Source: a virus
Strand: one strand, 5' to 3'
Length of the DNA: 21,200 bases
Virus record (IMG/VR): IMGVR_UViG_3300008627_000071
Coordinates: 1-21,200 of that record
In this document: piece after piece, positions 3-18,516 of the stretch
Numbering within the stretch: the stretch's first letter is position 1
How the letters are laid out: the number at the start of each line of letters is the position of its first letter
Notes under the pieces: generated by a model
Seen by the model: only the letters and a program-made list of their open reading frames with translations
Database searches by the model: none
What the model was told of the DNA's origin: nothing
Translations under genes and position numbers: made by a program

Positions 3-89
3 GTTTATCTTCGTTTACCTCCTGTCCCACTAAAATTTAGAGAGGCTATAACAAGACAGAACTATTCAAAGGCTAAAAGAACAGCATGA
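3..89 (+). pseudogene. N-terminal fragment of TET/JBP-like oxygenase, cut by in-frame TGA
   Basis: The frame is open from the window edge and ends at a TGA at 87-89. The same frame then continues without any stop to 707, where the oxygenase core lies. The fragment is basic (ending in a Lys/Arg-rich stretch, NYSKAKRTA) and reads naturally into the sequence after the TGA. I infer that it is the upstream part of the same protein rather than a separate gene. It is 5'-incomplete because the window begins inside it. The TGA could be a real nonsense mutation, an assembly error or a read-through site. Neighbouring genes use TGA as an ordinary stop and TGG for Trp. Confidence 0.45.
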
Positions 90-707
90 TTAATCACATA
101 CTCTAAGATATTTGGATCTTCACCTAGAGAACAAATCAGAAAAGATTATTGCTCCACTACTGCTTTTGCTAGAGATGATCCTGACGGTCATGCTGCCGTT
201 TGTAAATACGCAGAAAATTTAGCAGATTATTATCAAGAGTTTTGCCCGGAGATATTCGACTTTCATAAATCTATCATAGATGAGAAAGTGAGAGATGATT
301 GGGTTATAGAAAAATCACCATTTACCTCCGGGATAATTAACAAAAATAATGCCTTAAACTATCACTTTGATAGAGGAAATTTCAGTGACGTTTACTCCAA
401 TATGGTCGCATTGAAACACGATGTTAGAGGAGGATATTTGTCTATGCCTGCTTATAATATCGGATTAGAAATTGCAGATAATTCCGTTTTATTCTTTGAC
501 GGTCAAAAGATTCTACATGGAGTCACACCAATTACTTATCTGAATAGAGATTCTTACAGATACACGATTGTATATTATTCCCTTAAACAGATGTGGAAAT
601 GCGAATCACCGGAGGAGGAATTGAACCGGATCAAAAAGAGAAAAACTGAAAGAGAAACAAAAAGACTTCATAGATTACAAGGAAAAATACCTCAAGAAAT
701 TGTTTAA
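90..707 (+). CDS. TET/JBP-family 2-oxoglutarate/Fe(II) dioxygenase, catalytic core
   Basis: Predicted to oxidise the methyl group of 5-methylcytosine in viral DNA to 5-hydroxymethylcytosine, using Fe(II) and 2-oxoglutarate. The double-stranded beta-helix signature is visible. Numbering from the GTG at 288: H26-x-D28 in YHFDRGNF, then a GG turn (48-49), an FFDG strand, the distal H77 in ILHGVTPI, and R91 in the last strand (SYRYTIVYYS), which would bind 2-oxoglutarate. The frame is open from 90, but the only canonical start after the TGA at 87-89 is GTG 288. That start would give 139 residues and drop a conserved-looking upstream part (FGSSPREQIRKDYCS). The C-terminus is a Lys/Arg/Glu-rich tail. 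The gene overlaps the next by 8 nt and heads the modification cassette. The family call is fairly firm; the substrate is inferred from phage TET clusters. Confidence 0.75.
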   Translation, partial: LITYSKIFGSSPREQIRKDYCSTTAFARDDPDGHAAVCKYAENLADYYQEFCPEIFDFHKSIIDEKVRDDWVIEKSPFTSGIINKNNALNYHFDRGNFSDVYSNMVALKHDVRGGYLSMPAYNIGLEIADNSVLFFDGQKILHGVTPITYLNRDSYRYTIVYYSLKQMWKCESPEEELNRIKKRKTERETKRLHRLQGKIPQEIV

Positions 708-1425
708 TGAAGAATTAGGAGTTTTCATAGGAATACCCTCAAAAAGCCGTCCCTTTAGAGTAAAAGAACAAGAAAAACTAATGGGTTGTAAGCCTACTTG
801 GTTTGTTCCAAGAGAGGAGGTTAAACAATATGAGGATGAAGGAGCCATTACATTTCCTTGCGATGAAATAGGTTTACCTCAACAAAGAAATTATGCGCTA
901 GAGGAGGCTTTCAAGAATAATCAAACTGCCGTATTATTGGACGATGATCTAATTGGATTTAATTTCATATACCATGATAAAACTCTAAAACCATTAACAT
1001 TCGTAGAAACCGTCCAAGCGATGAAAAGAGAGGTTAACATATTCAAATTAGCCGGAAATTCATCAGGCACTAATCTATTTTGGTATGATCCTAAAAGACC
1101 AACCTCAAAAAAATCTCCGGTTGGAGGCATATTCCTAATAAAACCAAGTGAGCCAAGATATGATCCGGCTCTAAGATATAATGAAGATATGGATTTTAGT
1201 ATTCAGCATTATGTAAAATACGGAGGATTAATCAAAATAAACTATATTCAAAATAAATTCTTTGAAGCAACTATTGATATGGAAACAAAGAAAGTCAAAA
1301 AACCACTTGAAGGAGGTATTGATTACAATGATGATGATTTTGAAAATGCCTTTAATCATCTTCTAAATAAATGGGGAAACAGAATAAGGCGTTCAAAAAC
1401 AAAATACGAAGTGATTATGAGATGA
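700..1425 (+). CDS. TET-associated GT-A glycosyltransferase
   Basis: Predicted nucleotide-sugar-dependent transferase that adds a sugar to the hydroxymethyl group made by the upstream oxygenase. Visible features in 241 residues: an N-terminal beta strand with GIPSKSRP, a GLPQQRNYALEEA segment at about 58-70 (like the nucleotide-contacting GxxxxRN helix of GT-A enzymes), a metal-binding DDD at 81-83 after a hydrophobic strand, and an acidic NEDMDFS motif at 161-167 typical of GT-A active sites. The start is TTG at 700, because the ATG at 707 is in another frame. It overlaps the oxygenase stop and ends in ATGA with the next gene. Families of this kind beside phage TET genes are called TET-associated glycosyltransferases (TAGT). 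The sugar cannot be told from sequence. Confidence 0.75.
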   Translation: MFNEELGVFIGIPSKSRPFRVKEQEKLMGCKPTWFVPREEVKQYEDEGAITFPCDEIGLPQQRNYALEEAFKNNQTAVLLDDDLIGFNFIYHDKTLKPLTFVETVQAMKREVNIFKLAGNSSGTNLFWYDPKRPTSKKSPVGGIFLIKPSEPRYDPALRYNEDMDFSIQHYVKYGGLIKINYIQNKFFEATIDMETKKVKKPLEGGIDYNDDDFENAFNHLLNKWGNRIRRSKTKYEVIMR

Positions 1426-2366
1426 ATCTTTTACATCTATCAGAGCCAAAATTTGGAGGTTGGGTTAGTTATACGGCTCATTTAATGCTCCGTGATTATT
1501 CCGGAGAGCATATTTACAAGACTTCAAAACGATTAGAGAAAAAAACAAGAGATTTTGGCTTTGGAGTTAGGTATCAGAATATTCCAAAAGAGGCTATGAA
1601 GATGATGGATAACCAAATAGTATTGTCATTTGATCCTAAACATGAGGATTGTATTCCATATCTTAATGAGCCAACTCTATTAATGCACGATACAGCAGAA
1701 CCTAAAAGACGTTTAACGGATTTTTATCAATCCTGTAAAAGAATCATAGTAAATAGAAAAACCCTCAAAACTTTTCTAAAAGAGGAGTATGAACTTGAAT
1801 CTGATCACGTTGAAATGCCCTTTAATCCCTATCCAATACCGGAAACAGATTGGAGTAAAAAGACAAAGGCTCTAAATTTGGCTAGAGTAGAATACAGAAA
1901 AAATCAAGATATTATCTGTATTGCAAATCAAACTCTAGGAGATAAATTCATTGAAATATACGGTAAACGTAATTTGCTCTATGTCTTTCATAATCTCAAA
2001 GATTTAGGCTTTGATAAATACGCAAGAGGACAAAAGAATACAGGAGCATATCCCCATGATTTTGAAACTCATACTAAAATGCTAGAAGATTGTAAATTTG
2101 TAGTAGATTTAGCAAAATATGTTAGAGATGGAGGAGGTATGCAATATACATTCTTAGAGGCTATTCATCAAGATTGTGCCTTAATTCTACATAGGGATTG
2201 GATAAATCAACCGGGATCAGATTGGAAAGAAGGCTACAACTGTTTTGGAATAGATAATCCTAATGAATTAACCCGGCTTATTCAAGAGAATCCAGATACA
2301 GAAAAGATTTGCCGTAATGCTAAAAAACTATTGGATAAACATATCAATTCGGAGTTTAACTTTTGA
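1422..2366 (+). CDS. GT-B type glycosyltransferase (GT4-like)
   Basis: A second sugar transferase of 314 residues. I chose the ATG at 1422 because it overlaps the previous TGA (ATGA), as many genes here do; an ATG at 1371 would overlap the previous gene by 55 nt. The N-terminus has the EPKFGGWVSYT segment typical of the acceptor-side glycine-rich loop of GT-B enzymes. The C-terminal half has GGGMQYTFLEA (Glu at about 246), which corresponds to the donor-binding acidic motif of GT4-like enzymes, followed by a strand (CALILHRDW). Likely role: extending or branching the sugar placed by the preceding enzyme, or using a different donor. The call as glycosyltransferase is by fold motifs; donor and acceptor are unknown. 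Confidence 0.65.
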   Translation: MNLLHLSEPKFGGWVSYTAHLMLRDYSGEHIYKTSKRLEKKTRDFGFGVRYQNIPKEAMKMMDNQIVLSFDPKHEDCIPYLNEPTLLMHDTAEPKRRLTDFYQSCKRIIVNRKTLKTFLKEEYELESDHVEMPFNPYPIPETDWSKKTKALNLARVEYRKNQDIICIANQTLGDKFIEIYGKRNLLYVFHNLKDLGFDKYARGQKNTGAYPHDFETHTKMLEDCKFVVDLAKYVRDGGGMQYTFLEAIHQDCALILHRDWINQPGSDWKEGYNCFGIDNPNELTRLIQENPDTEKICRNAKKLLDKHINSEFNF

Positions 2367-2965
2367 ATATTCTAGCCATTGGCGCACACCCGGACGATAT
2401 TGAGGAAGGTTGTGCAGGATATTTAATCAAGAAACAAGCGCAAGGGCATAGAATTGGACATTGTTTAGTCACTGACGGATCTAATAGAGGATTAAAAGAG
2501 ATTAGAGATGTAGAACAAAAGAACGCATTAAACAAATTCCCTTCAACCGTTAAATCATGGAGTCTTGAATACGTTGATTGTCTTACAGAAGGCAATTTAC
2601 AGGATATTATAGAGGATTTAGAGAAAATAATTAATGAGTTCAAACCGGATATTATCTTCACTCATTTCCCGGAGGACACACATCATGATCATAGATTAAT
2701 CTCAAAAGCAACTCTTGAAGCCGGACGATACAAAGGACGGATATTTTTTTATGAATCTGCCATAACTAGAGGTTTTGAACCTACTCATTATTGCGATATT
2801 ACTAGTCATATTGATACTAAAATGGAAATAATTTCATGTTTTGAATCTCAAAGAGAAGTTATTGGAATAAAAGGAGTAAAAGCATTAGCACTATACAGGG
2901 CAATACAAAGTAAACAAGAGGCTAAATTTTCAGAATCCTTTAAAGCGTACAGGGATATTCTATAA
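2363..2965 (+). CDS. PIG-L/LmbE family N-acetyl-sugar deacetylase
   Basis: Zinc-dependent de-N-acetylase of the PIG-L/LmbE superfamily, which removes acetyl from GlcNAc-type sugars. The 200-residue protein has the hallmark AHPDD at 8-12 after a first beta strand, a VTDGS turn at 37-40, a long helix, and the second metal/catalytic motif HHDHR at 107-111. These residues match the zinc ligands and general base of the family. The start is TTG in a TTGA overlap with the previous stop. Position between two glycosyltransferases and a sulfotransferase suggests that it frees the amine of an N-acetylated sugar attached to DNA. PIG-L genes are known in phage TET clusters. Family call strong; substrate inferred. 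Confidence 0.85.
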   Translation: MNILAIGAHPDDIEEGCAGYLIKKQAQGHRIGHCLVTDGSNRGLKEIRDVEQKNALNKFPSTVKSWSLEYVDCLTEGNLQDIIEDLEKIINEFKPDIIFTHFPEDTHHDHRLISKATLEAGRYKGRIFFYESAITRGFEPTHYCDITSHIDTKMEIISCFESQREVIGIKGVKALALYRAIQSKQEAKFSESFKAYRDIL

Positions 2966-2973
2966 TTACGGAA

Positions 2974-3534
2974 ATGCAATCAAGTGAATATACTCCTTAT
3001 TTGTGTGGGTTTCAAAAATGTGGACTCAATAGTTTAATCAAATGGTTCCAAGAAACTAAAGGCATTACAGATATTCATACAACAGAAGATATTACAAGCG
3101 TCAACTGTATTCCTACTTACAAACCATTTCAGGATAAATGCTATCCAATAGCAATAATTCGGGATAAAATAGAGGCAGTATGGTCAATGTATTGGTTCTT
3201 TGGCTATTATCGACAATTTACGCTAGAGGAGTTTATGAAAATAGACAAACCTTCAATTCAATACGGTAATGAAAATCCATGTAATAGAGTAGATTTTGAC
3301 TATCACTTATCCAAGTTTGAGATTTATTGCGATGAAAAACCGGTTGTCTATAATTTAGATGAACTAAGAAAATTAAAGGAATTTCCAAAAAAGAATATCA
3401 CTTTTGATATGTTTAAGGAGTATGAAGATCATTTTGGATATAGAGAAATTAACAAAGAGGATAAATCAATCATTAAGGAGGCTCTAAAGAACTACAACAG
3501 GGACAATCTAAAGCATAAGGTGAAACTGATATGA
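2974..3534 (+). CDS. Putative PAPS-dependent sulfotransferase
   Basis: A 186-residue protein with the two phosphate-binding elements of PAPS sulfotransferases. Near the N-terminus, GFQKCGLNSL (12-21, Lys15) matches the 5'-phosphosulfate loop (family form GxPKSGTTSL). At 60-73, AIIRDKIEAVWSMY matches the 3'-phosphate motif (IRdPxxrawSmY), with Arg63 and Ser71 in the expected places. The rest is charged and short for the family, so the acceptor-binding part is reduced. The ATG is 8 nt after the deacetylase stop, and the gene ends in ATGA with a zinc microprotein. By context it would sulfate the sugar made by the upstream enzymes. No PAPS synthesis genes are seen, so PAPS would come from the host. 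Moderately sure of the family; role is inference. Confidence 0.6.
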   Translation: MQSSEYTPYLCGFQKCGLNSLIKWFQETKGITDIHTTEDITSVNCIPTYKPFQDKCYPIAIIRDKIEAVWSMYWFFGYYRQFTLEEFMKIDKPSIQYGNENPCNRVDFDYHLSKFEIYCDEKPVVYNLDELRKLKEFPKKNITFDMFKEYEDHFGYREINKEDKSIIKEALKNYNRDNLKHKVKLI

Positions 3535-4047: not shown

Positions 4048-4482
4048 TTGGTAAGAAGTAAAAGGTTTGAAGAACGCAAAAACGAAGAAAAAAGATTGGT
4101 ATTACACACTATTTGTATGCGTATGAGTGAACGTGAGGCTCTAGTTTATCTGAAAACTAGGAATCATGAAATGGGAGTTAACAAATATTATAATCTAAAA
4201 GAGGAGATAAAAACCTCCAAAATTAAAACATTACAGGATATAGCATTACATGACGGCTTAATTGAACAGCATTTAGATCGTATTCATAATTTAGAAGTCA
4301 TAGAACACGAACTATGGCTTACATTCAACTTAGAAACCGATAATTACAAACGTGCCTCAATTCTAACTAAAATCGCAGAAATGCAACCGTATATCTCCGG
4401 AGCCTATGACATGACTAGAGTTATCATGGAAAAACAGGTAGAACTGAAGACAGGATATGAAATGCCACAAATACGCAAATGA
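4048..4482 (+). CDS. Putative small terminase subunit
   Basis: A 144-residue, charged, mainly helical protein directly upstream of, and overlapping by ATGA, the large terminase gene, which is the usual place of the DNA-recognition small subunit. The N-terminal part (SEREALVYLKTRNHEMGVNK) reads as a helix-turn-helix-like segment, and the centre (about 75-125) as an oligomerisation helix pair with heptad-like Leu/Ile spacing. The start used is TTG at 4048; no ATG lies close to the frame opening. Evidence is position, size and helical character, not a recognised motif. Confidence 0.5.
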   Translation: MVRSKRFEERKNEEKRLVLHTICMRMSEREALVYLKTRNHEMGVNKYYNLKEEIKTSKIKTLQDIALHDGLIEQHLDRIHNLEVIEHELWLTFNLETDNYKRASILTKIAEMQPYISGAYDMTRVIMEKQVELKTGYEMPQIRK

Positions 4483-6284
4483 AAGATCCAAACCGTAGAA
4501 TCCCATTTTATGGGTTATTAGAAGATGAACTATCAATAAACGAACTAGGCACTGAATTACCTGAACTGCCCAAAAATATGCTAGAGTGGATAGCAGAAGC
4601 AAGACCACTAGTTATGGGACGTCCAAGAAACTTTGATTTATTCCCTTTTTACATTCCATTCTACGAAGATAATCACCCTAACATAATGGCAGTTAACGGA
4701 CGTCAAACCTTCAAAACTACAACCTGTTCAGATATTCTAGGAAATGCCGTTACAGCGTACAATAACGTTGAAGCCGGTTATGTAGCAGATAATGAAGCCC
4801 ACTTGGGAGCCTTTTCACTACAAAGATTTAGGAAACAAACTATGATACAGAATCCTAAATTAAGACAATTCTTGCCCGGAAAGGGCAGAGCCAATATTGG
4901 ATCTACTGTTTTACTAAATGACTCAATCGCTTATCTAATGACAGATGAGAATGAATACAACAAAGTTGAAGGCAAATCACTATCTGTCCTAATGTTAGAT
5001 GAGGCACAATATCAAGATGTGCAGTTCTTATCTAAAGCCTTTTACACCTTATCTCAAACTCATGGAAGATTTTATTGCTTTGGTATTGGAGGAGAAGCAG
5101 GATCTCCTTACAATGAAATGTGGGAAAGAACAGATCAAAGGGAATGGGTTTATGATGATCCTGAATGGCGTACTAGATTAGAGTTTGATAATAGAGGCAC
5201 GATAATTAATGAGCCGGACGAACTAAAGAGCATACTAGCAGGAAGATGGACTCCAAGAAAACCGGAGAATACTCAATACAGAGGTTATCATATGCCTCAA
5301 GAGATGTTCGCAACTATTCCGTTAACAATTCGGGACGCCATAGACAAATACAAAGTTCAACCGGAATTATCTATTGAATGGCAACGTGAGAATAATCCTA
5401 AATCCATTTATCTTTCTCACTGTAAAGGAGAATTTTTCAAAGCAGAAAGACGTCCAATTACTCCGGAAATGGTCAAGAATTGTATGAATCCTTATCGCTA
5501 TATGCCTTTAATGACTACCAATGAGATTAAAGAAATTAAAGAAACCTTTGGAAATGAGGTTAGAATCCTTATGGGAGTCGATTTTGGTAGTGGTAGTTCA
5601 GCTGGATCATTAACTGTAATATCTGTAATAATTCATTGGCGTAAATCAAAAAGATACCAACTAGCATACATTGATAGACGTCCTCAAGAGAATCAGATTG
5701 ACCAATCCCGATATATCGCAGATTTATTCCGTAGTGCTAAATGTGACTTTGGAGTAGGCGATTTAGGTTATGGACAGATTCAGGTTAAGTTAATTCAAGA
5801 TGGAGGCAGAGATTCTAAAGACAATCCATTTAGTGGATTAGGATCTTCTCACTTTGTAGGAGCAAGATCAACCGGAGATCTTCATAAAGAGAGTTCAGAA
5901 TTTAGAGAAACAACTGACGAGCATGGAACTGAAATATCTAGGATTAATGTTTCCAAAACGGCAGCAATTCAAAAGTTCATAGACCTACTAGAGTGGAATG
6001 TATCTCACCCTAATTTCCCGGAGGATAAAACATACAACCGTCCTAAACTTATGATCCCATATCAGAATGATTATGAAGTTGACTTTTTGGTAACTGACCT
6101 ATGTGCTACAACTAGAAAAGATTTGGAACAGGACGCAGATTTAACAGTTGAAGATCCTAGACAAATGGCTAAAAAAGAGTTTAATCACCCGGCAGATTCT
6201 ATGATGAGTTTAATCTATTGCTTTTCAGCAGATGAGAACTTTGATGAAGGAGCATATTCGATTAGCAGGACTTCACGCAGTTGA
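4479..6284 (+). CDS. terL: Terminase large subunit (packaging ATPase/nuclease)
   Basis: Motor that cuts concatemeric DNA and pumps it through the portal. The 601 residues are a normal length. The ATPase has a variant Walker A, GRQTFKTT at about 74-81 (the Arg-Gln form typical of terminases), and a Walker B with catalytic acid, LMLDEAQ at 171-177. The C-terminal RNase H-like nuclease shows Asp368 in GVDFGSG, Asp428 in GVGDLGYG and a late Asp573 in NHPADSMMS, the usual metal-binding set. It overlaps the small-subunit candidate (ATGA) and a tiny Cys ORF (TTGA). Genes for packaging, portal and capsid follow in order. Very secure call. Confidence 0.95.
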   Translation: MKDPNRRIPFYGLLEDELSINELGTELPELPKNMLEWIAEARPLVMGRPRNFDLFPFYIPFYEDNHPNIMAVNGRQTFKTTTCSDILGNAVTAYNNVEAGYVADNEAHLGAFSLQRFRKQTMIQNPKLRQFLPGKGRANIGSTVLLNDSIAYLMTDENEYNKVEGKSLSVLMLDEAQYQDVQFLSKAFYTLSQTHGRFYCFGIGGEAGSPYNEMWERTDQREWVYDDPEWRTRLEFDNRGTIINEPDELKSILAGRWTPRKPENTQYRGYHMPQEMFATIPLTIRDAIDKYKVQPELSIEWQRENNPKSIYLSHCKGEFFKAERRPITPEMVKNCMNPYRYMPLMTTNEIKEIKETFGNEVRILMGVDFGSGSSAGSLTVISVIIHWRKSKRYQLAYIDRRPQENQIDQSRYIADLFRSAKCDFGVGDLGYGQIQVKLIQDGGRDSKDNPFSGLGSSHFVGARSTGDLHKESSEFRETTDEHGTEISRINVSKTAAIQKFIDLLEWNVSHPNFPEDKTYNRPKLMIPYQNDYEVDFLVTDLCATTRKDLEQDADLTVEDPRQMAKKEFNHPADSMMSLIYCFSADENFDEGAYSISRTSRS

Positions 6285-16047: not shown

Positions 16048-17066
16048 AGATTGCAATAATGTTTGTAATTGCTTTTCTAGTAGGATCTTATGCCTATGTT
16101 TATGCCGAAGAACAAACAGTTGACGAATCAGTTATTGTTCCGTTTGAGTTCAATGGTAGAGTTTGTGGAATGTTAGAGAATGGTAATTTTGTTTGTGAAT
16201 GGGATCCATCAATCATTGATCTAAATGATATTATGGCTAACGGAACAACAGCAATCCCTAATCCAACCGAAGCAAGCACAACCGTTAATCAAACAGAAGC
16301 AGAACCTGAACCAACAGTTGAGGAAGAACCTGAAACAATCCTTACAAAGTTTGAGAAAGATCTTGAAAGATTAGAACAACAAGAAAAACTCAATTCAATA
16401 GATAAGGAATATTTGGCGCTGCTAAAGAACTTAGCAGAATGTCAAAGAGGTTATGCTGAATCATTCGGAGTAATGGAACCCTCATCATTCCCAATATCCT
16501 ACACTTGGATAAATGATAGAAATGGCGAATCTCCTGAATGGACTAAATCCTTTGATTATAAAGGACGACACGCTGAACTCAAAAAAGGTATTGAAGAATG
16601 TAAAGCCATTCGCACGATCCTCAATCCAGTGACTTTAGGAGTTTATACATTACACATGGGACAACACTTTGGATCTATCCAACCTCATCATTCTGAAAAG
16701 GCAATAGTTGATGAAGGTAGATGGCTAGATGTTAAGACTCATGTTCCACTCAATGAACACAATTTCATAGAGTCACTTGAGGACGCAAAGAACGCAATTT
16801 GTAATCATACCTTATACGAACAACGAACAAAGGATTATGCAAATTGTCCTCCTATCCAATATCCCGAAGGTGATATTGTAAACCAAAAGAGATTCATCGA
16901 ATATGGATCATCAGTTGAAGATAAATGGAAAAACTATCTCACTGACGGAGGTTTACAACAGGCTAAGCAAATAATGGGTGAAAAACTAAGAGAGAAGGCA
17001 GAACAACTTAGAGAAACCCAAGCAATACAAAGTCAACAATACACTGGCGAAGGTTACGGACAATGA
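16044..17066 (+). CDS. Secreted or virion surface protein (340 aa)
   Basis: A clear signal peptide (MKIAIMFVIAFLVGSYAYVYA, likely cleaved after Ala21) is followed by a folded start with two Cys, then an acidic Thr/Pro/Glu linker (about 65-98) carrying N-x-T sequons (NGT, NQT). The C-terminal 230 residues are helical, with Cys at several positions and a charged coiled end (QQAKQIMGEKLREKAEQLRE). Overlaps the metalloprotease gene (ATGA), so the two may act together outside the cell, for example on the S-layer or as an adhesin. No domain recognised. DNA here is free of CCGG for about 1.6 kb. Confidence 0.6.
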   Translation: MKIAIMFVIAFLVGSYAYVYAEEQTVDESVIVPFEFNGRVCGMLENGNFVCEWDPSIIDLNDIMANGTTAIPNPTEASTTVNQTEAEPEPTVEEEPETILTKFEKDLERLEQQEKLNSIDKEYLALLKNLAECQRGYAESFGVMEPSSFPISYTWINDRNGESPEWTKSFDYKGRHAELKKGIEECKAIRTILNPVTLGVYTLHMGQHFGSIQPHHSEKAIVDEGRWLDVKTHVPLNEHNFIESLEDAKNAICNHTLYEQRTKDYANCPPIQYPEGDIVNQKRFIEYGSSVEDKWKNYLTDGGLQQAKQIMGEKLREKAEQLRETQAIQSQQYTGEGYGQ

Positions 17067-17482
17067 GTCCAACCACTTTATTTTTTCTAATCGTAGTTAT
17101 AGCAATTTTTGTAATTGGAGTCATGAAAGTTTATGGGGATACTCCGGACGAAATTATTTGGGCAGTAAATGAAGAACATGGATTGAGAGCCGTCCCGATT
17201 TACTATGTAGATGAGATTGAAAATCATGGAGAGCATACTAAAGGTGTTTACAATCCTGTATTAGATGAAATTAGAATACTTAAAGGAGTAGGCGATTTTT
17301 ATGCTGTTCCCGGTTGCACTATTCGAGATCACGAAATATTACATGCTTGGGGATATGACCACGTATCCATGCAGGAGTTTAATTGCCCAAATCCAAACGT
17401 AGATTATGACGCTTTACAGTATAGAGAAACTTTTGTTAAACACTGGAATCCGAATTATGAGTGGAATGGTTATGAACGATAA
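17063..17482 (+). CDS. Membrane-anchored zinc metalloprotease (HExxHxxGxxH)
   Basis: 139 residues with an N-terminal membrane helix (6-22) and a complete metzincin-type zinc motif: His90-Glu91-x2-His94-x2-Gly97-x2-His100 (DHEILHAWGYDH). Preceding segments (VPIYYVD, VYNPVLDEIRIL) look like the strands that form the substrate cleft. The orientation puts the catalytic domain outside the membrane. The host envelope has an S-layer and no peptidoglycan, so a protease that opens the S-layer for exit is an attractive role. Overlaps the secreted protein upstream and a membrane peptide downstream. Motif call is firm; substrate is inference. Confidence 0.75.
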   Translation: MSPTTLFFLIVVIAIFVIGVMKVYGDTPDEIIWAVNEEHGLRAVPIYYVDEIENHGEHTKGVYNPVLDEIRILKGVGDFYAVPGCTIRDHEILHAWGYDHVSMQEFNCPNPNVDYDALQYRETFVKHWNPNYEWNGYER

Positions 17483-17734: not shown

Positions 17735-17974
17735 ATGGGAAATTTACCATTTGATAAATCCGACACTGCTTTAATTGTCGGATTAGTCTTTTTGGGAATA
17801 TTCGCAGGATTAGTCGTTTACATTATTGCTGACGCAGATCTAACAGAAATTAAGATCACAGGTAATATTGACGCAAACTACATCTTTGGAATATTTACCG
17901 GAATAGTAATTGCCTTTATTGGATTCATCGGAATCACTAGAGGTAAAGTAACAACTCAAGGAAGTCAAAATTGA
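17735..17974 (+). CDS. Two-pass membrane protein, holin-like (79 aa)
   Basis: Two transmembrane helices (about 11-32 and 48-67) linked by a polar segment (ADADLTEIKITGNIDAN), with a short charged N-terminus and a polar tail; size and shape fit small holins. GAGGA lies 6-7 nt upstream of ATG 17735, a proper ribosome site. The next gene overlaps (TTGA). With two HExxH proteins and other membrane peptides nearby, a role in egress is plausible. No holin family can be named. Confidence 0.55.
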   Translation: MGNLPFDKSDTALIVGLVFLGIFAGLVVYIIADADLTEIKITGNIDANYIFGIFTGIVIAFIGFIGITRGKVTTQGSQN

Positions 17975-18516
17975 CTTTCATTTTTTCTACTGACAACATA
18001 AATCCGAAAGTCTATGAAAAGATTTTCAGAAGATTCTTTATGCTTCAATTTGGTTGGGAGGATTGGGTTGTTTTCAATAGAGAGTTTGACGTCCATATAG
18101 TCCCGGTTGAAAAATCAGATCAATATCGTCAAATGTATGGATTAACTTCTTGGAATACTTCTAATGCTATACCTTGGGGATTCACTCAACCTCCAAATGT
18201 CGTATCAAATAACACTGTAAAAGGTAGGGTATTTTGGTTCGTTAATGATACTAAAAACCCGTTTATTCTAAGACAGAACGCTGAAAAGGGACTCCATGAA
18301 GCACTCCATGCCGGTTGTTGGATAGTATTCGGGACGGAACGTATGAAAAGGAAATATGATGATCCTCAAGCAAAAGCCGGAACAGAAGGAGCAAAGTATG
18401 TTATTGTTCCACATGATGTAGCATACGGCACTAAAGAAACTATCACTTTTTGGATTAGATATGGAATAATTTGGCTTCCAATAAAGGCATTATCCGTTAG
18501 AAATTATTTGCCTTGA
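17971..18516 (+). CDS. HExxH zincin-like protein (181 aa)
   Basis: Begins at TTG in a TTGA overlap. It contains His109-Glu110-x2-His113 in KGLHEALHAGCWIVFG, in a helix after a strand (GRVFWFVND), as in minimal zinc proteases; the third ligand is not obvious (His148 in VPHDVAYG is a candidate). No signal peptide; a hydrophobic segment near the end (FWIRYGIIWLPIKAL) may sit on the membrane. It is the second HExxH protein within 1.5 kb, though the two share no other similarity. Possible roles: S-layer or scaffold cleavage, or release. The family is not recognised beyond the motif. Confidence 0.55.
   Translation: MTFIFSTDNINPKVYEKIFRRFFMLQFGWEDWVVFNREFDVHIVPVEKSDQYRQMYGLTSWNTSNAIPWGFTQPPNVVSNNTVKGRVFWFVNDTKNPFILRQNAEKGLHEALHAGCWIVFGTERMKRKYDDPQAKAGTEGAKYVIVPHDVAYGTKETITFWIRYGIIWLPIKALSVRNYLP

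Follow-up and report, generated by a model that had tools for sequence, protein, structure and literature searches.

A candidate DNA-hypermodification cassette ending in a sulfotransferase-fold gene in a tailed virus of Nitrosopumilales

Sugar-bearing DNA bases protect viral genomes against nucleases, and the locus described here raises the question of what a viral DNA-sugar pathway would make if its last enzyme were a sulfotransferase. The window, by which we mean the whole 21.2-kb stretch of an IMG/VR viral record that was analyzed, carries five consecutive plus-strand genes at positions 3-3534, in the order TET/JBP oxygenase, GT-A, GT-B, PIG-L deacetylase, and sulfotransferase-fold protein (Table 1). 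A preliminary description, made from the sequence alone, had read these genes as a chained DNA-hypermodification cassette of a probable archaeal virus which would place a sulfated sugar on DNA cytosines. Our current reading, to which we give not quite an even chance, is that the cassette serves the post-replicative DNA hypermodification of a Nitrosopumilales tailed virus and would yield a 5-hydroxymethyl-pyrimidine bearing an amino sugar that is deacetylated and then sulfated.

The host was read from the large terminase subunit (TerL). With a TerL profile, 71 viral contigs were found to carry relatives. A search of 84,980 species genomes gave nine further carriers, every one of them a Nitrosopumilus, a Nitrosarchaeum, or an unnamed thaumarchaeon. 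Because the cellular relatives of this terminase were found in these nine thaumarchaeal genomes only, the window is assigned by its terminase sequence to a tailed virus of Nitrosopumilales, an order of ammonia-oxidising archaea, and the archaeal origin that had been called probable is thereby firmed up. APS kinase scored above the cut-off in 8 of the 9 TerL-carrying host genomes, so the sulfate donor PAPS should be available.

Table 1. Features of the cassette and the adjoining terminase genes in the window
Feature	Position (nt)	Strand	Basis
TET/JBP-type 2OG-Fe(II) oxygenase	3..707	+	Pfam Tet_JBP 8.7e-13; relatives 91-94% identical; HxD at nt 363, His at nt 516
GT-A-type glycosyltransferase, TAGT-like, DDD motif	700..1425	+	Pfam TAGT 0.0029 (window); alignment
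GT-B-like putative glycosyltransferase	1422..2366	+	Family adjoining TET in relatives; weak match of a relative
PIG-L/LmbE N-deacetylase (amino-sugar de-N-acetylase family)	2363..2965	+	Pfam 1.7e-23; PDB 2ixd 9e-17
Minimal sulfotransferase-fold protein, 186 aa	2974..3534	+	AF2 model; VIA-align PDB matches; profile matches
Probable small terminase subunit (TerS)	4048..4482	+	Position, conserved directly before TerL; without family match
Large terminase subunit (TerL)	4479..6284	+	PHROG 675 terminase 8.9e-22; host/lineage marker

The five genes are chained as the preliminary description had them. The TET frame and the TTG start of the GT-A gene overlap by 8 nt, the stops of GT-A and GT-B overlap the following starts by 4 nt each, and an 8-nt gap separates the PIG-L gene from the sulfotransferase gene; the GT-B start was placed at 1422 by homology instead of 1371. 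No RNA families or tRNA were found within the window.

The first protein is a TET/JBP-type oxygenase by its Tet_JBP match, which lies above the Pfam cut-off (48.3 bits versus 34.9), and the iron ligands present in the window are invariant in the five aligned rows. The dN/dS of the window TET against L001, L002, and L005 is 0.06-0.08. A PDB sequence search with the TET profile returned nothing useful, and no TET was found in the 400 Nitrososphaeria genomes searched. The identity given to this gene at the outset therefore stands, but its reading frame is not intact in the window. The 5' end lies off the contig, so that the gene's own start is absent, and an in-frame TGA stands at 87-89, where L001 has GGA and L002 and L005 have GGT (Gly); in these relatives the frame is intact. 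From the sequence, the TGA could be either a real nonsense change or a contig-end error, and if it is real, the window copy may fail to start the pathway. Both iron-ligand sites lie 3' of the TGA, and the downstream start listed for the gene is GTG 288. The TGA was read as Gly solely to carry the TET frame through. Genuine recoding of TGA as Gly was rejected because GT-A and GT-B of the same cassette stop with TGA and because the relatives carry GGA or GGT.

The sugar genes are assigned with differing firmness. GT-A matches Pfam TAGT weakly in the window, under the cut-off, and TAGT is above the cut-off in the GT-A relatives of L005 and L001 (4755); the adjacency of a TAGT-like glycosyltransferase to TET, a trait of Burke-type clusters, is thus found in this lineage. 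The GT-B protein had no direct family match. Since PDB profile searches with GT-A gave nothing useful and with GT-B no sequence match, GT-B is assigned as a putative glycosyltransferase from its motifs, from its context, and from a relative in L014 (41% identical) that weakly matches Glyco_trans_1_2 (0.0024), which makes it the weakest assignment of the cassette. The GT-B family adjoins TET in L002, L005, L010, L014, L022, and L040. The PIG-L match is strong (84.0 bits versus a cut-off of 28.2), the AHPDD metal-site motif is present, and the relatives include characterised GlcNAc-type deacetylases, with diacetylchitobiose deacetylases and BshB-type enzymes beside 2ixd among those in the PDB.

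The last gene returned no Pfam, NCBIfam, PHROG, or PDB sequence match, with no Pfam hit even at E 10; no Pfam sulfotransferase family was matched above cut-off, and by sequence the protein lies outside the known Pfam sulfotransferase families. Its fold was approached by modelling. With an input of four near-identical sequences, AF2 gave a pLDDT of 49.8, and a nine-sequence alignment raised this to 84.2 with a pTM of 0.82. Foldseek matches to the model were individually weak (best E 0.024) and at the top were mostly sulfotransferases. With VIA-align 2, all 50 of the 50 PDB entries listed were sulfotransferases, led by NDST1 (Z 9.5) and heparan-sulfate 3-O-sulfotransferases (9.2-9.4), with cytosolic sulfotransferases about 2 Z units below this group. 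Because the NDST and 3-OST rows are tied in Z, N- versus O-sulfation is not readable from these matches. In addition, a profile of the last-gene family had five matches in the 400 Nitrososphaeria genomes, and all five were Pfam sulfotransferases. The protein carries the 5'-PSB motif GFQKCGLNSL, Glu38, and the 3'-PB motif IIRDKIEAVWS; Lys15 of the 5'-PSB, Glu38, Arg63, and Ser71 are invariant across nine sequences and alignable with cellular sulfotransferases. In one of these, the counterpart of Glu38 is the Glu of the sequence KEIHFF, and it is at this position that 3-OST has its catalytic base. By its modelled fold, then, the last gene encodes a real sulfotransferase.

A protein of this kind could also be a former PAPS enzyme which now serves as a binding protein or persists as a relic. 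It is short, it escapes Pfam altogether, GLN replaces the usual-loop GTT, and the Pro of the 3'-PB is absent in the window. This alternative is very unlikely given that the dN/dS of the gene (0.10-0.16, window versus L001, L002, and L005) reveals strong purifying selection, that the four PAPS-site and active-site residues do not vary, and that the homologue in L098 keeps the canonical RNP form.

Taken together, the TET, glycosyltransferase, PIG-L, and sulfotransferase identities proposed beforehand were right, as judged by Pfam, relatives, and fold. The Pfam expectation held for Tet_JBP and PIG-L, was weakly borne out for TAGT in the window, and gave no direct match for GT-B or the sulfotransferase; for the last protein it is the modelled fold and the invariant residues that bear the identity out.

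The same gene order was then found to recur in viral contigs, with the middle genes swapped. L001 has TET, GT-A, a radical SAM gene, a second GT-A, PIG-L, and sulfotransferase; L002 has TET, GT-B, a different PIG-L, and sulfotransferase; L005 has TET, GT-A, GT-B, the same different PIG-L as L002, and sulfotransferase. The order is not due to chance, since it recurs in these three relatives, and together with the TET, GT, and PIG-L identities the recurrence upholds the view of the cassette as one of DNA-hypermodification type. TerS and TerL follow the cassette in the window and in all three relatives, and in the two contigs that include the upstream region, L001 and L002, TET is preceded by a ParB-like gene, so the lineage layout reads ParB-TET-GT(s)-PIG-L-sulfotransferase-TerS-TerL. 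Relative to the window, the three contigs are 91-94% identical in TET, 89-95% in the sulfotransferase, and 90-98% in TerL. The sugar genes are far more divergent from those of the window, at 63-65% for GT-A, 55% for GT-B, and either 66% or 27% for PIG-L (25% over the full alignment). Differences between the window and L001 along the sulfotransferase gene fall from 27 to 14, 3, 2, 0, and 0 per 93-nt block, and this drop inside the gene is the mark of recombination exchanging the cassette.

These patterns bear on whether the sulfotransferase belongs to the DNA-sugar pathway at all. Its conservation (86-95%) resembles that of TerL and TET, whereas the GT and PIG-L genes have been exchanged, so that its variation is not coupled to theirs. 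The same sulfotransferase stands behind two unlike PIG-Ls, 25% identical to each other, as would fit an enzyme needing a freed amine; the evolution of the sulfotransferase with the backbone instead of the sugar genes speaks against sulfation of such an amine. It is a serious possibility, on balance doubtful, that only the first four genes are devoted to DNA hypermodification and that the sulfotransferase, as a backbone gene close to the terminase, lies at the edge of the cassette by chance and works independently on another target, such as a virion or tail glycan, a host surface glycan, or a lipid. Homologues with 53-60% identity occur immediately behind TerL in the TET-less L098, L100, L104, L116, and L132; of the records that bear such a TerL-adjacent sulfotransferase, those of 30.3 kb and 38.3 kb yielded no TET, and both are fragments. 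These TET-less carriers are the main evidence against sulfated DNA, and they are not decisive, since DNA-modification status is not readable from fragments; one of them also has a methyltransferase and a neighbouring protein of unknown family. Elsewhere, related viruses have sulfotransferases within their tail modules: ordinary ones in L058 and L141, and two diverged family copies in L114, which has the cassette TET-FkbM-UGD-GT-B. When 45 further records, almost all of which carry TET, were searched, the family turned up in the L114 record only, and neither a genome-contig scan nor the phage collection gave a match to the sulfotransferase. Against an independent role stand the short distance to PIG-L, 8-9 nt in the window and in L001, and the nearest folds, which are amino-sugar sulfotransferases. 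It should be noted that further observations also count against our preferred reading, namely the interrupted TET of the window, the PIG-L to sulfotransferase distance of ∼150 nt in L002 and L005, and the TET-GTB-PIG-L sets of L010 and L011, which have no adjoining sulfotransferase.

The base that would be modified was considered next to the methyltransferase content of TET-bearing records. Phage sets of C5-MTase, TET, and glycosyltransferase lead to glycosylated cytosine, as recounted in PMC12730594 (citing Burke et al. 2021), and these sets, together with Tet_JBP family membership, speak for a TET which acts on 5-methylcytosine like characterised phage TETs and would give a (sulfated) glycosyl-5hmC. 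C5-MTase (PF00145) was found in 3 of the 49 TET records, which are mostly fragments. A set of 13 key records yielded no hit; it comprises the window, its lineage, the complete genome of Mycobacterium phage Prince, and two archaeal-virus contigs, one of 78 and one of 100 kb. The co-occurrence that characterizes Burke-type clusters was thus not seen in this mostly fragmentary set. A methyltransferase may come from the host or lie off the contig. Among named relatives, the TETs of mycobacteriophages come closest (∼33% identical). The Prince TET is annotated as "thymidine hydroxylase" and lies between ParB and a thymine-pyrophosphorylase-family protein (annotated "DNA glycosylase"), a P-loop kinase, and terminase, and L013 has the same pyrophosphorylase-family and kinase pair behind its TET. 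By genomic context, close TET relatives in L013, G054, and Prince are thus coupled to thymine-hypermodification genes.

The TET tree sharpens this point. The window TET falls in a nine-row clade (support 95/93) in which L010, with GT-B and PIG-L, stands beside L013, with pyrophosphorylase and kinase (TETs 78% identical), and L012, with UGD and two GTs, stands beside G054, with a kinase (TETs 87% identical). A change of base between such close TETs is unlikely, so the GT-type cassettes of this clade most likely act on 5hmU, as judged by genomic context; an annotation such as "thymidine hydroxylase" does not have the weight of an assay. Thymine is therefore the likelier target base, the cytosine of the preliminary description is weakened, and an origin of the product from 5-methylcytosine appears improbable.

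From these data we infer a base, a sugar, an acceptor, and a set of activities as follows. The TET/JBP enzyme would hydroxylate a 5-methyl-pyrimidine in viral DNA, with thymine (giving 5hmU) favoured over 5mC. One or two glycosyltransferases would attach a sugar to the hydroxymethyl group, and PIG-L would strip the acetyl from an amino sugar to leave a free amine. The sulfotransferase would then transfer sulfate from host PAPS to the sugar, by N- or O-sulfation, much as in the heparan-sulfate deacetylase/N-sulfotransferase pair. That the cassette oxidises a DNA base and adds a trimmed amino sugar is very probable. The final step, in which the sulfotransferase acts on the DNA-linked sugar, is possible, at somewhat less than an even chance, and we hold equally tentatively to its outcome, a viral genome with a sulfated (N- or O-sulfo) amino sugar on a 5-hydroxymethyl-pyrimidine, probably 5hmU.

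If this is true, the product would be the first natural sulfate-bearing DNA base modification, formed by a heparan-sulfate-like deacetylase/sulfotransferase pair, and sulfation would give DNA a permanent negative charge, which would be new DNA chemistry. What is new here is that a DNA-sugar cassette of the TET type occurs in a new host group and has as its final gene a sulfotransferase outside known families. A literature search that covered neither Burke 2021 nor Iyer 2013 found no paper in which a sulfotransferase is linked to a phage genome and to DNA hypermodification, and we make no claim of priority. With this locus, TET/JBP cassettes reach the viruses of Nitrosopumilales, a host group with a central place in nitrogen cycling, and some of the viral enzymes called "TET" may in fact oxidise thymine.

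The cassette can be set beside several known systems. Like the phage cytosine clusters of Burke et al. 2021, it has a Tet_JBP oxygenase adjoining a TAGT-like GT and sugar-tailoring genes; unlike them, the window lineage lacks a C5-MTase in the records searched, has an archaeal host, and carries a terminal sulfotransferase, a comparison which leaves aside the full list of tailoring genes in that source. The Prince locus, from the phage group with the closest named TETs, shares the ParB-TET-tailoring-terminase layout, but Prince has a bacterial host and tailors by kinase and pyrophosphorylase, whereas the window does so by GT, PIG-L, and sulfotransferase. Kinetoplastid base J (JBP1/2 and JGT) likewise combines an oxygenase and a glycosyltransferase on a DNA base, with thymine suspected in the window; the window, in contrast, is viral and has an extra GT-B, a deacetylase, and a sulfotransferase. 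The PIG-L protein shares its family and AHPDD motif with the LmbE-type enzymes (2ixd, diacetylchitobiose deacetylase, and BshB) but is viral. Finally, NDST1 and the heparan 3-O-sulfotransferases are the nearest folds of the last protein and offer the parallel of a deacetylase paired with a sulfotransferase, whereas the window has separate genes, a PIG-L-type deacetylase, and a minimal enzyme with 11-16% structural-alignment identity to them. By adjacency and fold, the two proteins of the window are possibly an NDST-like pair acting on one amino sugar.

The TET gene of the window contains an in-frame TGA where relatives encode Gly, which represents either a true nonsense change or an error at the contig end. 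In two other TET-bearing viral contigs, L012 and L014, the cassettes include genes resembling UDP-glucose dehydrogenase, which suggests that these sister viruses carry a uronic-acid sugar, likewise anionic, on their DNA. Additional genes within or near TET cassettes, and sulfotransferase genes elsewhere in related viruses, are listed below.

Positions of accompanying genes and sites
Contig	Positions	Feature
Window	87-89	TGA within TET
L001	3803-4792	Radical SAM/SPASM protein between two GT-A genes of one cassette
L012	3158-4009	UDP-glucose dehydrogenase-like
L014	2472-3374	UDP-glucose dehydrogenase-like
L002 (same lineage as window)	4071-4916	PAPS-reductase/SspD-like ATP-pyrophosphatase (SspD match 1.4e-08), closely 5' of ParB-TET
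L058	1486-2265	Ordinary sulfotransferase (Pfam above cut-off), tail-gene module
L141	10518-11339	Ordinary sulfotransferase (Pfam above cut-off), tail-gene module
L098	5210-5572	Short ORF, possible second sulfotransferase-like, 3' of TerL and immediately 5' of sulfotransferase
Window	17063-17482	HExxH protein
Window	17971-18516	HExxH protein
L013	5765-8242	TET locus

The two HExxH proteins of the window (HEILHAWGYDH, HEALHAGC) had no Pfam match and are possibly metalloproteases of the virion or lysis region.

In viral contig L013, the genes behind TET encode a protein of the thymine-pyrophosphorylase family and a P-loop kinase, and this locus is a candidate post-replicative 5hmU hypermodification pathway with TET/JBP as the starting enzyme.
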